This document shows, in pieces, positions 14,761 through 25,350 of a DNA stretch of 34,554 nt. Made by a program: the position numbers and the translations under genes. The stretch comes from Myxococcales bacterium. Lineage in GTDB: Bacteria > Myxococcota_A > Polyangia > JAHFDS01. Where the stretch lies: positions 1 through 34,554 of the forward strand of contig JAHFDS010000029.1 in NCBI GenBank assembly GCA_023248855.1, read 5' to 3'. Positions within the stretch are counted from its first letter, which is position 1, and every line of letters begins with the position of its first letter. The notes under the pieces are model-generated. The model had not been told where the DNA came from and searched no databases. It was given only the letters and a program-made list of their open reading frames with translations.

Positions 14761-16128
14761 GTGACCGACCGTCCGCGCGTCCTGGTGGTGGACGACGAGA
14801 AGGAGGTGCGCGACCTGGTCGCGGGCCTCTTGGCCTCGCGCGGCTACGAGGCCGTGCTCACCGCCGACGGCGCCGAGGCGCTCGAGGCCGTGGCTCGGGT
14901 GCGGCCACGCTTCGTGCTGACCGACCTGCGCATGCCCACGATGGACGGGATGCAGCTCCTCGACGAGCTGCGCCGGCGCGGCTCCGAGGCGACGGTGATC
15001 GTGATGTCAGGCTTCGGAACGTTCGACCTCGCCGTGGAGGCGATGCGGCGTGGGGCCTACGATTACGTCGAGAAGCCCTTCCGCAACGACGAGCTCGTGC
15101 TCGTGTTGCGCAAGGCCGAGGAGCGCGAGCGCCTCCTGGCGGAGAACCGTCAGCTCCGTCGTGCGCTCTACGGCCCGGCGCGCAGCGGCCTCGTCGGCAC
15201 CTCGGCGCCGATGGCTGCCCTCGAGGCGCGCCTCGCGAGGCTGGCCCCGCACAAGACGACTGTGCTGGTCGAGGGCGAGAGCGGAACCGGCAAGGAGCTG
15301 GTCGCCCGCGCGCTCCACCGCGGCTCGCCCCGCGGCGAGGGGCCCTTCGTGGCCGTCAACTGCGGCGCGATCCCCGAGCCCCTGCTCGAGAGCGAGCTGT
15401 TCGGCCACGTTCGCGGCGCGTTCACCGATGCGATGCGCGACAAGCGAGGCCTCATCGAGGAGGCCTCGGGCGGCACGCTGTTCCTCGATGAGATCGGCGA
15501 GCTCCCCCTGTCCCTGCAGGCGAAGTTGTTGCGCGTCCTGCAGGAGGAACGCCTAAGGCCCCTCGGCGCCACCGACGAGCGGACCGTCGATGTGCGCGTG
15601 GTCGCGGCTACGGTGCGCGATCTCGACCTCGAGGTCGCCGAGTCTCGCTTCCGCGAGGACCTCTACTACCGGCTGGCCGTGGCACGAGTTCGGCTGCCGC
15701 CCTTGCGCGAACGACGCGAGGACATCCCCCTGCTGTGCGCTCACTTCGTGCGCAAGCACGCGGCGCGGCTAGGGCTGTCGGACGCACCCGCGCTCACGGC
15801 GGAGGCCGTCGCACTGCTCCAGTCGTATTCGTGGCCGGGCAACGTGCGCGAGCTCGAGAACGTCATCGAGCACGCGATCGTGCTCGCCGAGGGGCCGGCG
15901 CTCGACGCGTCGTCGCTGCCCGATCGGCTCCGCCTGGGCGAGCCCGACCCGCTGATCCTCGTGAGCGCTGCGCCGGGGCTCTCCATCAAAGAGAACACCC
16001 GGCGTCTGGAGGCGGAGCTGATCCGACGCGCGCTCCACCAAACCCATGGAAACCGAACCAAGGCACTTGAATTGCTTGAGATTTCACATCGAGCCTTGCT
16101 CTACAAGATCAAGGAGTATGGGCTGTAG
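14761..16128 (+). CDS. NtrC-family sigma-54-dependent response regulator
   Basis: ORF of 455 aa with GTG start; receiver VLVVDDE, LTDLRMP, EKPF; AAA+ GESGTGKE, GAFTDA, GGTLFLDEIGELP; Fis-type HTH GNRTKALELLEISHRALLYKIKEYGL. Confidence 0.95.
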   Translation: MTDRPRVLVVDDEKEVRDLVAGLLASRGYEAVLTADGAEALEAVARVRPRFVLTDLRMPTMDGMQLLDELRRRGSEATVIVMSGFGTFDLAVEAMRRGAYDYVEKPFRNDELVLVLRKAEERERLLAENRQLRRALYGPARSGLVGTSAPMAALEARLARLAPHKTTVLVEGESGTGKELVARALHRGSPRGEGPFVAVNCGAIPEPLLESELFGHVRGAFTDAMRDKRGLIEEASGGTLFLDEIGELPLSLQAKLLRVLQEERLRPLGATDERTVDVRVVAATVRDLDLEVAESRFREDLYYRLAVARVRLPPLRERREDIPLLCAHFVRKHAARLGLSDAPALTAEAVALLQSYSWPGNVRELENVIEHAIVLAEGPALDASSLPDRLRLGEPDPLILVSAAPGLSIKENTRRLEAELIRRALHQTHGNRTKALELLEISHRALLYKIKEYGL

Positions 16129-16222
16129 CCTGCTTTCGAGAGGATGATTCATGTCGGATTCGTACACATCGCAAAAAACACAGAGAATCATGCGACTACA
16201 AACCGACATATAATTTAGCATC

Positions 16223-16236
16223 AATTATATATAATT
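16223..16236. repeat. Perfect AT-only palindrome AATTATATATAATT
   Basis: Direct reading, within an AT-rich island of otherwise high-GC DNA. Confidence 0.9.
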
Positions 16237-16250
16237 TTGAGCAGAAATTC

Positions 16251-16339: not shown

Positions 16340-16789
16340 ATGAAGGCGCTAGAGAGCGAGCCCATGACCTCACGCGGCGCGGAGACTGCGCGTGGCGAAG
16401 CCGTGGGCGACGAGCATGCCGAGCCGCACGACACCGAGCCGGCTCGCGAGCGCGCCGTCCACGACGCCAAGCACGAGGGCAAGGTGGCCGAGGCGAAGAC
16501 CGCCGAGGCGAAGACCGCCGAAGTGAAGACCGCCAGCGACGCCAAGACGAGCGGCGTCGACAAGCGCGCCGCGTCGAAGGGCAAGTCGAAGAAGAACAAC
16601 GTCCGCAAGCTCCGCATGGAGCGGATGATGAGCAAGGCGGAGCTCGCGCGACGCGCGGGTGTCTCGACGCTGACCATCGACCGAGTGGAGAACGGCTACC
16701 CCTGCCGCATGGACACCAAGCGGAAGATTCTCGAGGCGCTCGGCCTCAAGCCGAGCGATCGGCTGCTGGTCTTCGGCGACGAGGACTGA
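16340..16789 (+). CDS. XRE/Cro-like helix-turn-helix protein with charged, repetitive N-terminal region
   Basis: ORF of 149 aa; HTH VRKLRMERMMSKAELARRAGVSTLTIDRVENGYPCRMDTKRKILEALGL; N-terminal VAEAKTAEAKTAEVKTA. Confidence 0.85.
   Translation: MKALESEPMTSRGAETARGEAVGDEHAEPHDTEPARERAVHDAKHEGKVAEAKTAEAKTAEVKTASDAKTSGVDKRAASKGKSKKNNVRKLRMERMMSKAELARRAGVSTLTIDRVENGYPCRMDTKRKILEALGLKPSDRLLVFGDED
16490..16534. repeat. 15-bp tandem repeat x3 (gaggcgaagaccgcc) in the HTH gene N-terminal region
   Basis: Two perfect copies (16490-16504, 16505-16519) and a third with two mismatches (16520-16534). Confidence 0.85.
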
Positions 16790-16986
16790 CCCTCCCCCTC
16801 CTGTCTGCTGCCAGACGATCGGCGGCGGTTGCGATGCCGGCAGACCTCGCACGGCACGAGCTGGCGCACGTGAGCGGGAAACTAGCGGTTGCGCCGGCCA
16901 CCGCGGTATCATGAACGCGCCGAAGACGCGTGTGCGCTGCCCGGACGTTGGGTGGGGGGCACGCGCGCGGAGCGGAAGGCAAGCGG

Positions 16987-18038
<1,052 letters not shown>

Positions 18039-18042
<4 letters not shown>

Positions 18043-18668
18043 TCCGGATCAACCTACTCCCGGTCAAGGCAGCCAAGAAGCGAGCCACGGGCCAGCGGCA
18101 GCTGATCCTGATGGCCATGATCGTCATCGTGGTCGGCGTCGCGGTGACGATCTTCCACCTCGCGGACGCGAGCGAGCTCACGACGATGCAGCAGGACAAC
18201 AAGGAGCTCAAGGACGCGATTGCCAAGCTCAAGGGTGTGGTCGGCGACTACGAAGCCGTGCGGAATCAGAAGGAGAAGCTGGTCCGGCAGCGCGACACGA
18301 TCAAGCGACTCCAGGACAGCCGGGGTGGACCCGTGTTCGTCCTTCGCGAGGTCTCGGAGATCCTCACCAAGGATCGAGGTCCCACCTTCGACAAGGACCA
18401 CTACGAGGAGCTTTTGCGGCGTGATCCGAACGCCGGCTACAACCCGAGCTGGGACCCGCGTCGGGTCTGGATCGGCTCGCTTCACTTCGGGGGTGGAAGG
18501 CTGGACCTCGGTGCCGCGGCAAAGTCCAACGACGACGTGGCCGAGTTCATGAAGCGGCTCGAGCTCTCGGTCTTCTTCCGGGACGTCTCGCTGAGCGGCA
18601 CGGCCGCGCAGGGCGGAGGTGCGGGAAGATACTACGCCTTCGGCATCGGAACGAACGTCAACTTCTGA
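18039..18668 (+). CDS. pilN: Type IV pilus assembly protein PilN
   Basis: TTG start overlapping the pilM stop (TTGA); (M)IRINLLPVKAAKKRATGQRQLILMAMIVIVVGVAVTIF; position between pilM and pilO. Confidence 0.9.
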
Positions 18669-18780
18669 TGGAGGAGGAGCGTTCAGTGCGACTGCCAAGG
18701 CGACCACTGCGGCCTAGGTCGAATGTCGTCCAACGATGGATGGGCAGCCCTGGACGCGGTGAAGAAGGGACGCGCGGCTG

Positions 18781-19353
18781 ATGGATCAGTTTTTCGACAA
18801 GCTCGCGAAGATCCCGCAGGCGCAGAAGGCGGCGATCGTCGTCTTCCTGTGTGCGGCCGTGGTCGCGGGCTGGTACTTCCTCTTCTACACGGACCTGCAG
18901 GCGCAGAAGCAAGGGCTGCGCAACGAGAAGAAGCGACTGCTCAAGGAACGCAGCGAGTACGAGCAGCGCGTGCAGGACTACCTCAAGCTGCGCTCCGAGA
19001 TCGCCCAGCTGCTCGAGGAGGAGAAGGAGCTGCTCCGCGTGCTCCCGAATCGCCAGGAGCTGCCGACGTTGCTCGAGAGCATCCACGCGCAGGCCGAGCT
19101 CGTGGGGCTCAGCATCAACACGTTCTCGCCGGGCGCCGAGTCACCGGTCGAGATGTACTTTCGGATCCCGGTCTCGATGTCGGTCGTAGGCTCGTATCAC
19201 CAGCTCAACAAGTTCTTCAAGAACCTCGGTGACCTCAAGCGAATCGTGAGCGTGGAGGATCTGTCCCTGGGCGGCCCGAGGTTGGAGGACGGTGCGATCA
19301 AGCTGAACGCCAACTTCATCGTGACGACGTTCCGGTTCCAGGATCGCAGATGA
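18781..19353 (+). CDS. pilO: Type IV pilus assembly protein PilO
   Basis: ORF of 190 aa; single N-terminal TM, coiled coil, VEMYFRIPVSMSVVGSYHQLNKFFKNLGDLKRIV. Confidence 0.94.
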   Translation: MDQFFDKLAKIPQAQKAAIVVFLCAAVVAGWYFLFYTDLQAQKQGLRNEKKRLLKERSEYEQRVQDYLKLRSEIAQLLEEEKELLRVLPNRQELPTLLESIHAQAELVGLSINTFSPGAESPVEMYFRIPVSMSVVGSYHQLNKFFKNLGDLKRIVSVEDLSLGGPRLEDGAIKLNANFIVTTFRFQDRR

Positions 19354-19940
19354 TGACGCGGGCCAAGGTGCGAAAGGTCTGGCGCGCCCTCGGGACGGGG
19401 ACCCTGCTCCTGGCGCTGCATGCCTGCGAGGATGCCCCGCCGCCGAGCCGGGGCACGGGTGGCCCGGTGCCTGCCGCGGCGCCTGCCCCAGCCCCTGGCG
19501 CTCCGGCGCCGGCTGCGGCCCCGGCGGTGAGCAATGTCGAGAAGCTCCGCCGCAAGGCGCTGCGGGAGGAGGACTTCTTCGAGAGCGAATCCAACCGCGA
19601 TCCGTTCCGCTCGTTCCTCGACGCCCTGAACCGGTCGAGCCGAGGTCCCGTGACCTCGGACGTCAAGGTGTACTTCAAGGACTACGGGTGCGAGGAGATC
19701 CGTCTCATCGCGATCATCGCGGGCGGCCTCAACCCGCATGCCATGTTCAGGGACCCGCGCGGAATCGGGCTGTCGATCCGGGTGGGCGACCGCATCTGTC
19801 GGTCGCAGGCCAAGGTGATTCGAATCGTTCAGGATGCCGTCGTGGTCGAGACCGAGGAAGACCTCGGTGGGGCAAAAACGCGCCCCGTCCAGAAGCGGAT
19901 CCCGATCAGCAACGAAGAGCTGCTGGAGCTTGCTCAGTGA
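19350..19940 (+). CDS. pilP: Type IV pilus lipoprotein PilP
   Basis: ORF of 196 aa; LLLALHACEDAPPPS lipobox, Pro/Ala linker, RDPFRSFLD...RDPRGIGLSIRVGDRI. Confidence 0.93.
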   Translation: MMTRAKVRKVWRALGTGTLLLALHACEDAPPPSRGTGGPVPAAAPAPAPGAPAPAAAPAVSNVEKLRRKALREEDFFESESNRDPFRSFLDALNRSSRGPVTSDVKVYFKDYGCEEIRLIAIIAGGLNPHAMFRDPRGIGLSIRVGDRICRSQAKVIRIVQDAVVVETEEDLGGAKTRPVQKRIPISNEELLELAQ

Positions 19941-19960
19941 TGCCGAGAGCTGGAGGAGCG

Positions 19961-22900
19961 ATGACAGGCAACCGAAGTCGGCGACCCGGGGGGCGTCGTC
20001 CGGCGCTGCAGCTCTGGGTGCCCGCGCTGGCGGGTCTCCTGGCGACTGGCATGGAGAACCCGCTGCGCTGGGTGGCAGGAGATGCCTCGGTCGGGGCCGC
20101 GCTCGCGGGGCCCACACGCGCCGCGGCCAACCGGATCGCCGCCGTCAAGGTGGGCGAGGACGGGAGCGTGACCACCGTCGTCGTGGTGGGCTCGGGCACC
20201 CCTACGTTTTCGGTCTTCAAGCTCGAGCAGCCGTTGCGTCTGGTCATCGATGTGTCGAATGCCGTGCTCGCCAGCGAATCGCTGTCGGGACCCGTGGACG
20301 CGCCGAGCACCTGGGCGGTCAGTCAGGCCGTGGTGTCGGGCGTGACGGGGGACCAGGGGGGCCGCGCCCGCGTCGTCGTGGCCTTCCGTCGGCCATCGGA
20401 TTACTCGGTGCAGGCTCGCGGCAACGATCTCGTCGTGACCGTCCGGCCGTTCGACGAAAAGCCCGCTCAGGCGGTCGGGCAGGCGGCGAAGGCGGGGGCT
20501 GGTGATCGCGCGTTGCGCGAGGAGGCCGATCGGGCGTTGAAGCGCGCCGCGGAAGCGGAGCGTGCAGCCCGGGAGGCCAATGCCCAGGCCGCCCGGGAGC
20601 GCGCGGACGCGGACAGCCTGCGGCGGCAGGCGCGCGTCGATCGCACCGAGGCGGACCGCAGGGCGCGCGAGCTGGAGGCGCGACGGTCCGATGCCGAGCG
20701 CAAGGCGCGCGAGCTGGAGGCGCGGCGGTCCGATGCCGAACGCAAGGCGCGCGAGCTGGCGGCGCAAAAGGACTCCGACGCCGAGCGGCGCACGCGTGAG
20801 GTCGCGGTGCGCGAGGGCGAGGCCGAGCGCCGCGCCAGGGAGACTGCAGAGGCAGCCGAGCGACGCAGCCGCGACATCGTGCGGCAGGCGGAGGAGAAGT
20901 CGCGTCGGCTGACGCTCGACGCCGAGCGCGTGCGCGCGGAGGCGGAGCAGACGAGGCAGGCGGCCACCGTTGCCGCCCAGCGGGAGCTGGAGGGCGCACG
21001 CAAGGACGCGGATCGGCTGCGGCGCGATGCCGAAGGCGTGGCGCGCGCAGAGACGGAGCGGCGCACGGCGCAGGCCGCGCGGGATGCCAAGGAGCTCGGG
21101 TTCCTCGAGGAGCGGCTGCACTTCGCGGTGCGCGCTCGCGAGGAGGCGGAGAAGGCGGCCATCGCCGCGCGCATCAAGGCGCGCGAGGCCGAGCGCAAGG
21201 CGCAGGAGGCCGTGGTCGTGCGCGCCCGCGAGGAGGAGCGGGCACGCTCGGTGGCAGCCGCGATCAAGCTGTCGGAGAGCCGTCGAGAGACCCTCGACAG
21301 CCAGGTGCGGGAGGAAGAAGCCAGAAAGCAGGCGCTGGTGGCGGCTCGCGCGAACGAGGAGCTGCTGGCGCAACGCGCGGCGACTGCGCGCGCCGAGGCG
21401 GAGGAACGACGCGCCATCGCGGAGCTCGCCCTTGGGCGCACCGAGAGCGCCCGGCAGGCGGCGGATGCGGCCGGGCAGAAGGCGCGCACCGATGCCGACC
21501 GGACCCAGGCGTCGCAGCTGGCGCACGCGCGCGAGCAGGCCGAGGTCGAGTCGAGGCGCGCCGTCAGGAGCCGGCTCGAGGCCGAGGCCGAGGCCACCCG
21601 GACGCGGGAAGCGCACGCGCTGGCCCGAGCGCAGGTGACCGACGAGGAGGGCCGGCTGAGGACCTCGCAGCTCGCCCGCGCTCGAGAGGAGCAGCGCCTC
21701 AAGCAGGCCCAGGACGCGCGCGCCCGGGAGGAGCTGCGGCTCGCGGCGTTGCGTTCGGAGCGCGAACGCCTGGAGCGGGCCCGACCGGCCGGCGATCTGG
21801 TGGCCCTGGCGACCCGGGCGACGCAGCCGACAGAGGAAGTCGCGGTCGAAGTCGCGCCTCGGCGGAGCCTGGTCACGCGCGCGGATGCGCCGCGGCAGAA
21901 GGCCGCGGTCGTGATCCAGGACATCCAGTTCATCGACGAGCCCGGCAGGTCGTCGGTCGTGATCGATCTGGCTCGAGGCGTGCCCCCCGAGGTCGAGGTG
22001 CTCCGGCAGAGCCCGCGCACGGCCGTGCTGGTGGTGCCGGGCGCGATGCTGGATCGCGAGGCGCAGACCGACCGTGATACCACCGAGTTCCTGGGTCCCG
22101 TGCGCGGGTTCGAGGCGCGAGCGGATCGCGCGGGGGTGCGCGTTCGTGTAGACCTCGCCGAGTCTGTGCCTGCCACGCTGCGCAAGGTCGGCTCGAAGCT
22201 CTACTTCGATTTTGCCAAGGGCAAGAGCAGCGCCCTCGGCGGCGTGCTGCCGGAGCGGGCGCCGCTTTTCGTACAGACGATCTCGCCCACGCGGGTGGCG
22301 CTCTTCCAGTCGAGGCCACTCGGCAGAAACGGTACGAAGAAGCGCTACACTGGCCGGCGCATCGATCTCGACTTCAAGGATGCGGACATCCACAACCTGC
22401 TCCGCCTGCTGTCCGACGTCGGGCAGATCAACATCATCACCGACAACACGGTCGGCGGCTCGGTGACCCTCCGCCTGCGCAACGTGCCCTGGGACCAGGC
22501 CCTCGATCTCATCCTCAAGGCCAGGGGCTACGGCATGGTGCGCGAAGGCAACCTCCTCCGAGTGGCGCCCCAGGGGGTGCTCGACAAGGAGCGCGAGGCG
22601 GAGCTCGCGTGGCGGCGCGCGCAGATCGAGCTCGAGCCCCTCGAGACGCGCCTCATCCCGCTGTCGTACGCCCAAGGTGGCGACATGGCGGGGCGCATCC
22701 AGGAGGTGCTGTCGCCACGCGGCCGCGTGAGCGTGGACGCTCGCACGAACTATCTGATCGTCACGGACGTCCGTAACAAGATCGACCTGGCTCAGGAGCT
22801 CGTGAACAACCTCGACACGCAGACCGCGCAGGTGCTCATCGAGGCCCGCATCGTCGAGGCGAACACCTCGTTCTCCCGCCAGTTCGGCATCCAGTGGGGG

Positions 22901-23641
22901 TTCGACTACATCGCGTCCGCCGCGACCGGCAATCCCACCGGCCTGGTCTGGCCGAGCACGGTGGCGGTGGCCGGCGGAACTCCGACGGCCGGCGCGCCGA
23001 CGACTGGGCTCCTGGCAGGCGCGGCGCAATCGCCGAACTTCGTCATCAACATGCCGGCCGCGGCCGGGGCCGGCGCGGGCGCTGCCCTCGGCTTCACGTT
23101 CGGCTCGCTGTCCGGCAACTTCAACACCAACCTGCGCCTGTCGGCGCTCGAGACCACCGGCAACATCCGGACACTCTCGGCGCCACGCATCCAGACGCTG
23201 GACAACCAGTCCGCGACCATCACCCAGGGCCGCAGCATCCCCATCTCGCAGGTGAGCGCCGCGGGCGTGAACACGGTGTTCGTGCAGGCGGCGACCACGC
23301 TCGCGGTCACCCCCAAGGTCACCAACGAGGGGACGGTGATGCTGACCATCAACGTGACCCGGAACGAGCCCGACTTCGGCAACACGGGAGCCCGCGGCGA
23401 CCCGTCGATCCTCACCAAGTCCGCGACCACGAACATGCTGGTCAAGGACGGCGACACGGCGGTCATCGGCGGCATCTACTCGCGCGTCGCCGGCACCTCG
23501 TGGGGCAAGGTGCCGTTCTTCTCCGACATCCCGATCCTCGGCTGGTTGTTCAAGACCATGCGCGAGACCGACGACCGCAGCGAGCTCCTCATCTTCATCA
23601 CCCCGCGCGTCGTCAACCGCGCTCGCTCGATCGGCCAGTAG
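19961..23641 (+). CDS. pilQ: Type IV pilus secretin PilQ with long helical insert
   Basis: Start ATG at 19961 with GGAGG upstream (alternative ATG at 19940); two AMIN-like regions; DLDFKDADIHNLLRLLSDVGQINIITDNTVGGSVTLRLRNVPWDQAL; secretin core ending KVPFFSDIPILGWLFK...ELLIFITPRVV. Confidence 0.95.
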   Translation: MTGNRSRRPGGRRPALQLWVPALAGLLATGMENPLRWVAGDASVGAALAGPTRAAANRIAAVKVGEDGSVTTVVVVGSGTPTFSVFKLEQPLRLVIDVSNAVLASESLSGPVDAPSTWAVSQAVVSGVTGDQGGRARVVVAFRRPSDYSVQARGNDLVVTVRPFDEKPAQAVGQAAKAGAGDRALREEADRALKRAAEAERAAREANAQAARERADADSLRRQARVDRTEADRRARELEARRSDAERKARELEARRSDAERKARELAAQKDSDAERRTREVAVREGEAERRARETAEAAERRSRDIVRQAEEKSRRLTLDAERVRAEAEQTRQAATVAAQRELEGARKDADRLRRDAEGVARAETERRTAQAARDAKELGFLEERLHFAVRAREEAEKAAIAARIKAREAERKAQEAVVVRAREEERARSVAAAIKLSESRRETLDSQVREEEARKQALVAARANEELLAQRAATARAEAEERRAIAELALGRTESARQAADAAGQKARTDADRTQASQLAHAREQAEVESRRAVRSRLEAEAEATRTREAHALARAQVTDEEGRLRTSQLARAREEQRLKQAQDARAREELRLAALRSERERLERARPAGDLVALATRATQPTEEVAVEVAPRRSLVTRADAPRQKAAVVIQDIQFIDEPGRSSVVIDLARGVPPEVEVLRQSPRTAVLVVPGAMLDREAQTDRDTTEFLGPVRGFEARADRAGVRVRVDLAESVPATLRKVGSKLYFDFAKGKSSALGGVLPERAPLFVQTISPTRVALFQSRPLGRNGTKKRYTGRRIDLDFKDADIHNLLRLLSDVGQINIITDNTVGGSVTLRLRNVPWDQALDLILKARGYGMVREGNLLRVAPQGVLDKEREAELAWRRAQIELEPLETRLIPLSYAQGGDMAGRIQEVLSPRGRVSVDARTNYLIVTDVRNKIDLAQELVNNLDTQTAQVLIEARIVEANTSFSRQFGIQWGFDYIASAATGNPTGLVWPSTVAVAGGTPTAGAPTTGLLAGAAQSPNFVINMPAAAGAGAGAALGFTFGSLSGNFNTNLRLSALETTGNIRTLSAPRIQTLDNQSATITQGRSIPISQVSAAGVNTVFVQAATTLAVTPKVTNEGTVMLTINVTRNEPDFGNTGARGDPSILTKSATTNMLVKDGDTAVIGGIYSRVAGTSWGKVPFFSDIPILGWLFKTMRETDDRSELLIFITPRVVNRARSIGQ
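20663..20788. repeat. 42-bp tandem repeat x3 (14-aa ARELEARRSDAERK) in the pilQ insert
   Basis: Copies 20663-20704 and 20705-20746 nearly identical; third copy 20747-20788 diverged. Confidence 0.85.
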
Positions 23642-23664
23642 CCGACGCTGAAGCTGGAGCCCGG

Positions 23665-25350
23665 TTGCGTCCCATCCTGTTGTGCGGGCTGCCAGGGTCG
23701 GGCAAGAGCGCGCTCGGCGGAAGGCTCGCCGCAAGACTCGGCGGCGCCTTCGTGGATCTCGACGAGGCGGTGGCGGCGGAAGCCGGGCGCTCGATCGCAG
23801 ACCTGTTCGCCCGGGAAGGCGAGGCGGCCTTCCGTGATCGCGAGGGGCGCGCGCTCAGGGCGGCGCTCGAGGGGGCTCCGGCCGTGATTGCGCTCGGGGG
23901 GGGCACGCTGTGCCGGGCCGACCACCTGGTGCTGGCGCGCACCCGTGGCACGCTGGTGTGGCTCTGGGCCGACCCGGCCGTCCTCGTGGCGCGGCTCGAG
24001 GCCGACGAGCGAGCTGTGCCGGGGCGCCGTCCGCTCCTCGCGGGTGGCACGATCACGGCGCGGGTGCGGCAGCTGCTGGACGAGCGCTGGGCATTTTACG
24101 AGCAGGCCCACGTGCGGGTCGACACGACAGCGCTCTCGCCCGACGAGGCGGCCGAGCGCGTCGAGCGGATGGTCGGCACGCTCGCGCTCGAGAGTACGTT
24201 GCCGCCGGGAACGCCCGTCCCAGGGCCGCCGGTGCGAACGATCCCGGTGCCCCTCGGCGCGCGACGGTACGACGTGGTGGTCGGGGCGAGCTTCGACGGC
24301 CTTCCTGCAGCGCTGCTGCGCGCCGGCGTGGTGCCGCTCCGCGCCTCTTCCGCGCTCGTGGCGGACGCGGCCGCCCTTCGCCTGCATGGCGCCGCCGTGC
24401 GCGCGGCCCTCGCGACGGCTCGCATCGAGCCCGTGGTGCTCGAGGTTCCTTCGGGCGAGGCGCACAAGCGGCTCGCGACCCTCGAACGGCTCGCGGAGGC
24501 GTGCGTGGCTGCCGGGCTGGATCGTGGGTCGGTGGTGTTCGCGCTCGGGGGCGGGGTGGTAGGCGACCTTGCGGGGATGCTGGCGGCCACGCTCCTGCGG
24601 GGCATGCGGGTGGTCCAGCTCCCGACCACCCTGCTGGCCCAGGTCGACGCGGCGATCGGCGGCAAGACCGCGGTCGATCTCGCAGCGGGCAAGAACTTGC
24701 TCGGGGTCTTCCACCAGCCCCGCCTCGTGTTTGCGAACGTCGAGACGCTCGCCACGCTGCCCGCCCGCGAGCTCCGCTCCGGGCTGGGCGAGGTCGTCAA
24801 GTATGCGTTGCTCGGTGCCCCGGGGCTGCTCGAGCAGCTGGGCGGTCTCGAGGTCGAGCACCTGCCCTCGCGCGTGCCGGAGCTGGTCGCGTTGGTGGCC
24901 CGATGCGCCGAGCTCAAGGCGACCGTGGTCGGAGAGGACGAGGAGGAGCGCGGCGATCGGAGGAAGATGCTCAACCTCGGCCACACCATCGGGCATGCGC
25001 TCGAGACCGAGAGCGGCTACGCGCTCGCGCACGGGGAGGCGGTGGCCCTCGGTCTCGTCGCCTCCCTGCGGGTGTCGCGCGCGCTCGGCTTGCTCGAGGA
25101 GGCCGATCTGGAGGAGCGCGTCGTGAGCCTCCTCGGCCAGCTCGGCTTGCCGACGGATCTCGACGCGAGGCTCTCGCCCGCGGTGATGGCCCGGGTGGGC
25201 GCCGACAAGAAGCGCGCAGGCACCGAGGTGGACTTCATCTGCGTGCGCAGGACCGGAACCATCGAGGGGGTTCGCGTCGCGGTGGCGGCGTTGCCGTCGC
25301 TGGTGGCGGGCAGGAATGTTGCTGCCCCAGAAAACGGGGTGTTACGCTGA
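23665..25350 (+). CDS. aroKB: Bifunctional shikimate kinase / 3-dehydroquinate synthase fusion
   Basis: TTG start after GGAG; N-terminal GLPGSGKSALGGRLA, DLDEAV, ALGGGTL (AroK); C-terminal GGGVVGDLAGMLAATLLRGMRVVQLPTTLLAQVDAAIGGKTAVD (AroB); one uninterrupted frame. Confidence 0.92.
   Translation: MRPILLCGLPGSGKSALGGRLAARLGGAFVDLDEAVAAEAGRSIADLFAREGEAAFRDREGRALRAALEGAPAVIALGGGTLCRADHLVLARTRGTLVWLWADPAVLVARLEADERAVPGRRPLLAGGTITARVRQLLDERWAFYEQAHVRVDTTALSPDEAAERVERMVGTLALESTLPPGTPVPGPPVRTIPVPLGARRYDVVVGASFDGLPAALLRAGVVPLRASSALVADAAALRLHGAAVRAALATARIEPVVLEVPSGEAHKRLATLERLAEACVAAGLDRGSVVFALGGGVVGDLAGMLAATLLRGMRVVQLPTTLLAQVDAAIGGKTAVDLAAGKNLLGVFHQPRLVFANVETLATLPARELRSGLGEVVKYALLGAPGLLEQLGGLEVEHLPSRVPELVALVARCAELKATVVGEDEEERGDRRKMLNLGHTIGHALETESGYALAHGEAVALGLVASLRVSRALGLLEEADLEERVVSLLGQLGLPTDLDARLSPAVMARVGADKKRAGTEVDFICVRRTGTIEGVRVAVAALPSLVAGRNVAAPENGVLR

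Follow-up and report, generated by a model that had tools for sequence, protein, structure and literature searches.

Organization of the pilQ locus

The window, i.e. the entire 34,554-nucleotide stretch of DNA analyzed here, carries the genes pilM, pilN, pilO, pilP and pilQ in this order on the forward strand, the arrangement expected for a type IVa pilus secretin. The first four (16930..19940, +), directly upstream of pilQ, encode alignment-complex proteins of ordinary size; PilM, PilN and PilO were recognized by Pfam, whereas the match of PilP was weak (18.4 bits, under its cut-off), with fitting size and position. The pilQ open reading frame (19961..23641, +) starts with an ATG preceded by GGAGGAG and encodes an uninterrupted protein of 1226 aa that scores 405.9 bits against the NCBIfam PilQ model TIGR02515 (curated cut-off 284.35). 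As stated in the initial annotation, a PilQ of this size is unusually long: the solved PilQ chains that were found have at most 901 aa. Pfam identified two AMIN domains (PF11741; 33.9 and 25.3 bits, gathering score 20.5), the only ones found in this genome, and the GspD-like N0/STN, Secretin_N and Secretin domains.

From the N-terminus, PilQ comprises AMIN1 (residues ~59-159; 20135..20437, +), the predicted peptidoglycan-binding head, which lies at the distal tip of the arm and is delineated by Pfam (residues 65-160), a local AMIN HMM, a β-sandwich in the AlphaFold2 (AF2) model and Foldseek; the helical arm (residues 181-607; 20501..21781, +), delineated by composition, charge statistics and AF2; a proline-containing linker of low AF2 confidence that joins the arm to AMIN2 (residues 608-651; 21782..21913, +); AMIN2 (residues ~652-748; 21914..22204, +; Pfam, AMIN HMM and AF2); and the N0/STN, Secretin_N and secretin pore domains (residues ~803-1218; 22367..23614, +; Pfam and NCBIfam). 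Judged by its sequence, this PilQ is an otherwise ordinary secretin of the type IVa pilus in which a long, proline-free and charge-rich helical arm sets AMIN1 apart from AMIN2, N0 and the secretin domain. An artifact of frame or assembly was ruled out by the presence of Pfam domains in one frame on both sides of the arm, dN/dS values below 1 among relatives and like architecture in dozens of genomes. A 1266-aa open reading frame on the opposite strand (19934..23734, −), which spans all of pilQ, is most likely an antisense reading artifact of high GC content.

Upstream of the pilM-Q genes lie a gene for a PilR-like sigma-54 response regulator (14761-16125, +) and, before pilM, an HTH_3 gene (16340-16786) in which a 15-bp repeat (GCCGAGGCGAAGACC) is present in 3.2 copies at 16487-16534. 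An AT-rich sequence containing a near-repeat of 23 bp (16170-16250), upstream of the HTH_3 gene in a window otherwise of 62-75% GC, is a possible regulatory region.

A charge-rich helix between the two AMIN domains

The arm consists of 427 residues (~181-607), and the insert of about 430 residues rich in Ala, Arg and Glu that had been described between the AMIN regions was recovered as residues 181-610 (20503-21790), with 25% A, 21% R, 17% E, 1.9% glycine and one proline. When compared to composition-preserving shuffles, opposite charges in the arm are enriched at i+3 and i+4 (z = 1.6-5.7, the strongest being 5.65 at i+4), whereas no enrichment was detected at spacings 1, 2 and 5-8; such a pattern is not expected from chance composition and is characteristic of a helix stabilized by salt bridges. 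The density of i+4 opposite-charge pairs is the highest among the 78 linkers analyzed below. A hydrophobic heptad was not detected in the window arm (shuffle z = 0.77), in line with the original impression, so that coiled-coil pairing is unsupported in this species. With charge enrichment at i/i+3 and i/i+4 and no hydrophobic heptad seam, the sequence of the arm fits an SAH-like single α-helix. When searched alone against Pfam, the arm matched no family.

ER/K single α-helices, such as those in the tails of myosin VI and X, are characterized by a ladder of opposite charges between i and i+4. The window arm resembles these in its opposite-charge ladder and lack of a hydrophobic seam, but is rich in Ala and Arg rather than in blocks of E and K. 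Disorder of the arm, which would have contradicted the helical reading, was ruled out by the helical charge ladder, the absence of proline and the AF2 model, in which helices were predicted at residues 183-320, 353-490 and 515-607. Within the arm, a tandem repeat with a 42-bp period (20646..20765, +; 14-aa unit, 2.9 copies, 91% match) was detected, which reflects a recent lengthening of the arm by units of two heptads.

Distribution of long linkers in Myxococcota

PilQ genes were gathered from the class and the phylum of the window, AMIN domains were located by means of a profile built from these proteins, and the gap between AMIN domains was measured; the sample is essentially Myxococcota, with stray loci from beyond the phylum (e.g. 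L111 from Syntrophaceae, with a gap of 42 aa, and L105, with 27 aa). There were 78 distinct complete long linkers, of 242 to 2036 aa (median 634), from at least 24 sampled Myxococcota family codes, and the complete long loci have the order AMIN, helix, AMIN, secretin. The insert is not peculiar to this genome: an arm of this kind occurs in the majority of the families sampled from one large branch of the phylum. Occurrence of the insert in homologs from many families had been named as an outcome that would speak against the original reading, and within Myxococcota this is the outcome observed. In a short clade, whose named members are Sandaracinaceae and Polyangiaceae, gaps are uniformly ~18-36 aa (typically ~25 aa), whereas linkers in the long clade are rarely below ~240 aa. 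In the outgroup, which includes types with three AMIN domains, gaps are 27-169 aa and much richer in Pro and Gly. Between 10% and 80% of their length, the long linkers are nearly devoid of proline (19 of 38,916 residues, 0.05%, vs. 4.6% in the secretin core), and Gly and Asn are flat along the arm, giving no signal of a central turn.

The longest PilQ (L165), with an open frame of 2830 aa and an inter-AMIN gap of 2036, belongs to a family from another class of the phylum (f27; L165, L162, L164 and L166-L170), in which PilQ open frames are 2255-2830 aa, far longer than any solved secretin chain found, and arms are ~1480-2036 aa. An in-frame stop was observed within pilQ of two metagenome assemblies (G170:C37, locus L159, and G087:C113, locus L178). 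In one genome close to long-arm species (G020; L018/L126), the PilQ open frame is 644 aa, and no AMIN domain was detected in it.

Coiled coils and growth by heptads

The hydrophobic period over the 78 linkers is 3.50-3.54; in 87% of them the heptad signal exceeds z = 3 (median z = 8.5), and 92% have their maximum at the heptad period, as opposed to 18/5 or the hendecad. By these sequence periodicities, the linker family is mainly coiled coil, with the window protein among a few exceptions, at the SAH-like extreme. Thus, of the two helix types initially considered, the SAH-like one fits the window protein, whereas the linker of most relatives is a genuine heptad coiled coil; the family overall does not conform to the SAH type.

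Close relatives differ by 99 indels of 5 or more residues, of which 39 have a length divisible by 7; among the 24 with well-aligned flanks, this applies to 15 (binomial p = 8 × 10−8). Among tandem arrays with a period of at least 12 bp, 76 of 146 have periods divisible by 21 bp. Taken together, these observations point to growth by duplication of heptad units, although repeat slippage alone could give rise to indels of heptad multiples, and both selection and slippage are admissible as the process that sets the unit. In lengthening and shortening alike, the arm mostly stays in heptad phase, and its composition remains one that a helix tolerates. The heptad indels are single and scattered at ~0.05-0.6 of the arm, a distribution compatible with a parallel coil or a single helix but not with a fixed hairpin. 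Arm length varies widely even between close relatives: at 97-98% identity in the core, arms are 426-534 aa long.

Evolutionary history and selection

Trees were built with FastTree for 170 PilQ cores and with IQ-TREE for 46. The long-arm proteins form one large group, with the short clade nested inside it (support 100/100), and a clade consisting of long-arm proteins only, without the short group, was rejected (AU test, p = 2.5 × 10−18). With the outgroup used, and assuming this placement of the root, the phylogeny indicates one gain of the arm and one later loss, by which the short clade reverted to ~25 aa. In the 170-row tree, 7 length changes were counted, several of them due to truncated or AMIN-less frames.

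The dN/dS values are 0.09-0.46 for the arm, 0.02-0.21 for AMIN1 and 0.02-0.11 for the core; the arm is under purifying selection. Among long pairs, 29 of 39 show higher conservation of AMIN1 than of AMIN2, vs. 11 of 20 among short pairs, a weak contrast between the groups. The hit spans of PilN, PilO and PilP show no correlation with the length of the arm and are nearly the same as in the short group. A wider periplasm as the driver of arm length was rejected because the sizes of these proteins do not follow the arm.

Predicted structure of the arm

AlphaFold2 was applied to monomers, and the window construct covered residues 45-760. In this model (mean pLDDT 78, pTM 0.32), two AMIN β-sandwiches and three helices, two of 138 residues and one of 93, are predicted, with the mutual placement of the helices not fixed by the model. 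Foldseek matched the AMIN1 model to PilQ of M. xanthus (3jc8), the best structural match (31% identity), and to AmiC of E. coli (4bin). For the long-arm relative L096, helices of 123, 230 and 236 residues are predicted, the latter two flanking a short turn at residues 484-489, with confidence highest near the turn. The counterparts of the L096 arm in Foldseek are antiparallel arms, namely those of a Thermotoga chemoreceptor (MCP; 2ch7, TMt 0.64), Smc and Rad50. A conserved central hairpin turn was searched for in two clades, and none was found.

Possible roles of the arm

At 0.15 nm per residue, a straight helix would be ~64 nm long in the window protein, ~95 nm at the median linker length and ~305 nm at the maximum. 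An ordinary periplasm is tens of nm wide. The initial annotation tentatively suggested a periplasmic spacer or tether. Since the arm would exceed this width and PilN, PilO and PilP are not lengthened, a simple spacer spanning the periplasm from the inner to the outer membrane is unlikely, given rods of 64 nm in this protein and as much as ~300 nm among relatives. Being too long to stand upright, the rod would have to lie in the plane of the periplasm or to be folded back.

The best explanation, in our judgment, and one that we consider about evenly balanced between right and wrong, is that the arm is rod-like and holds the predicted peptidoglycan-binding AMIN1 at a great distance from the secretin ring. 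The ring has 12-15 protomers, and every one of them would bear one arm; in this species the arm would be a single charged helix, and in most relatives it would form a parallel coiled coil with neighboring protomers. The arm would extend from the ring inside the periplasm and bring AMIN1 into contact with peptidoglycan at a distance of tens to hundreds of nm. The arms with AMIN1, together with AMIN2 near the ring, could act as guy-lines or outriggers that share the retraction load over a patch of the cell wall, and/or they might enlarge the capture radius for septal or polar peptidoglycan during recruitment. What suggests this reading is that AMIN1 is kept at the end of the arm and that work on M. 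xanthus and P. aeruginosa has shown PilQ AMIN domains to bind peptidoglycan and to be needed for recruitment to the pole (PMC10653833, PMC5285504). The gene, its architecture and the helix-type composition, distribution, history and constraint of the arm are read from the sequences, whereas we infer the peptidoglycan binding of this AMIN1 and the oligomeric state, direction and load bearing of the arm.

A parallel coil or a single helix is favored over a folded arm. Were the arm folded back on itself, as a hairpin of antiparallel coiled coil or as a bundle of three helices, with a length of ~20-35 nm, it would fit the periplasm, place AMIN1 near AMIN2 or about one periplasm width away, and form a collar on the ring or an extension of its vestibule. 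The two 138-residue helices and the third of 93 in the window model, the paired long helices around the turn in L096 and the antiparallel arms among the Foldseek matches of the latter all seem to point this way; however, monomer prediction in the absence of partner chains is biased to fold back, the arm shows neither central G/N enrichment nor a conserved central turn, and single insertions of 14, 28, 63 and ~200 aa occur at scattered positions while the other side is unchanged. On balance, we regard folding back as rather unlikely, albeit the strongest of the competing readings. Conceivably, the arm could instead serve the search of AMIN1 for septal or polar peptidoglycan before assembly and be free of load afterwards. 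The dependence of polar recruitment on AMIN domains in M. xanthus (PMC10653833), the extended reach and the good conservation of AMIN1 are compatible with such a fly-casting tether, but a stiff helix makes a poor flexible one, and M. xanthus manages with short flexible linkers and with one AMIN being enough, so that a helix of 240-2036 residues would be unnecessary; this appears improbable.

Slightly less probable still is that the arm is mostly neutral, i.e. that slippage of heptads or 14-mers extends a tolerated linker that is kept soluble and helical, with its length serving no specific function. The length variation among near-identical cores and the 21- and 42-bp repeat arrays, including the one in the window, are what such a process would produce, but the near-total exclusion of proline, dN/dS well below 1, retention across at least 24 families and the gulf between the lower length limit of the long clade and the uniform gaps of the short clade argue against it. 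The arm might also stand in for TsaP, a LysM anchor of secretins: three LysM proteins were found in this genome (assembled in 724 contigs), namely a transglycosylase with three LysM, an M23 peptidase and a 137-aa protein (on C384, C353 and C512), none of them TsaP-like, whereas tsaP has been reported in every myxobacterium examined (PMC6060248).

Extending the rod-like reading to the phylum, the type IV pilus secretins of most Myxococcota lineages, the Myxococcus-type and Polyangiales-type branches excepted, might bear 12-15 rigid coiled-coil arms, ~40-300 nm long, that lie in the periplasmic plane and end in peptidoglycan-binding AMIN heads, a radial skirt of guy-wires that would spread the retraction force over the cell wall; this generalization is doubtful. 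Lateral anchoring of the machine in the cell wall by the arms, if true, would be relevant to how bacteria hold a strongly pulling pilus without rupture of the envelope. The sister clade, which naturally lacks the arm, offers a ready comparison.

Relation to known systems

The best solved relative is PilQ of M. xanthus (901 aa, 3jc8; E = 2.9 × 10−150), which has the same order of AMIN, N0 and secretin, but three AMIN domains as opposed to two in the window protein; these are carried on flexible linkers and bind peptidoglycan (PMC10653833). The sampled PilQs with three AMIN domains have linkers of ~30-170 aa with ~8-36% Pro and Gly, in contrast to the proline-free helix of the window-type arm. 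PilQ is among the best-studied secretins, and an arm of hundreds to 2000 residues marks a branch of the very phylum to which M. xanthus belongs. Nevertheless, titles and abstracts of the open-access literature on PilQ, PilQ of Myxococcota and long coiled coils in secretins yielded no description of a helical arm in PilQ, and the text of the ten-species PilQ survey in the M. xanthus paper does not mention one (PMC10653833). Within the open-access literature, the arm thus appears to be a new architectural variant of PilQ.

Two further parallels can be drawn. Domain II of TolA in gammaproteobacteria (PMC12204202), a helix that spans the periplasm, is, like the PilQ arm, a long helical periplasmic segment of variable length that connects an envelope machine to a distant domain; however, TolA is anchored in the inner membrane and driven by a motor, whereas PilQ is an outer-membrane secretin whose arm has no membrane anchor, and no homology is claimed. 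SlpA of Deinococcus (PMC9388160), reported as a connector of the outer membrane and the cell wall, is, like PilQ, an outer-membrane protein with a coiled coil, which in SlpA links to the cell wall, but it belongs to a different protein family, and the PilQ arm is located between two AMIN domains of a secretin.
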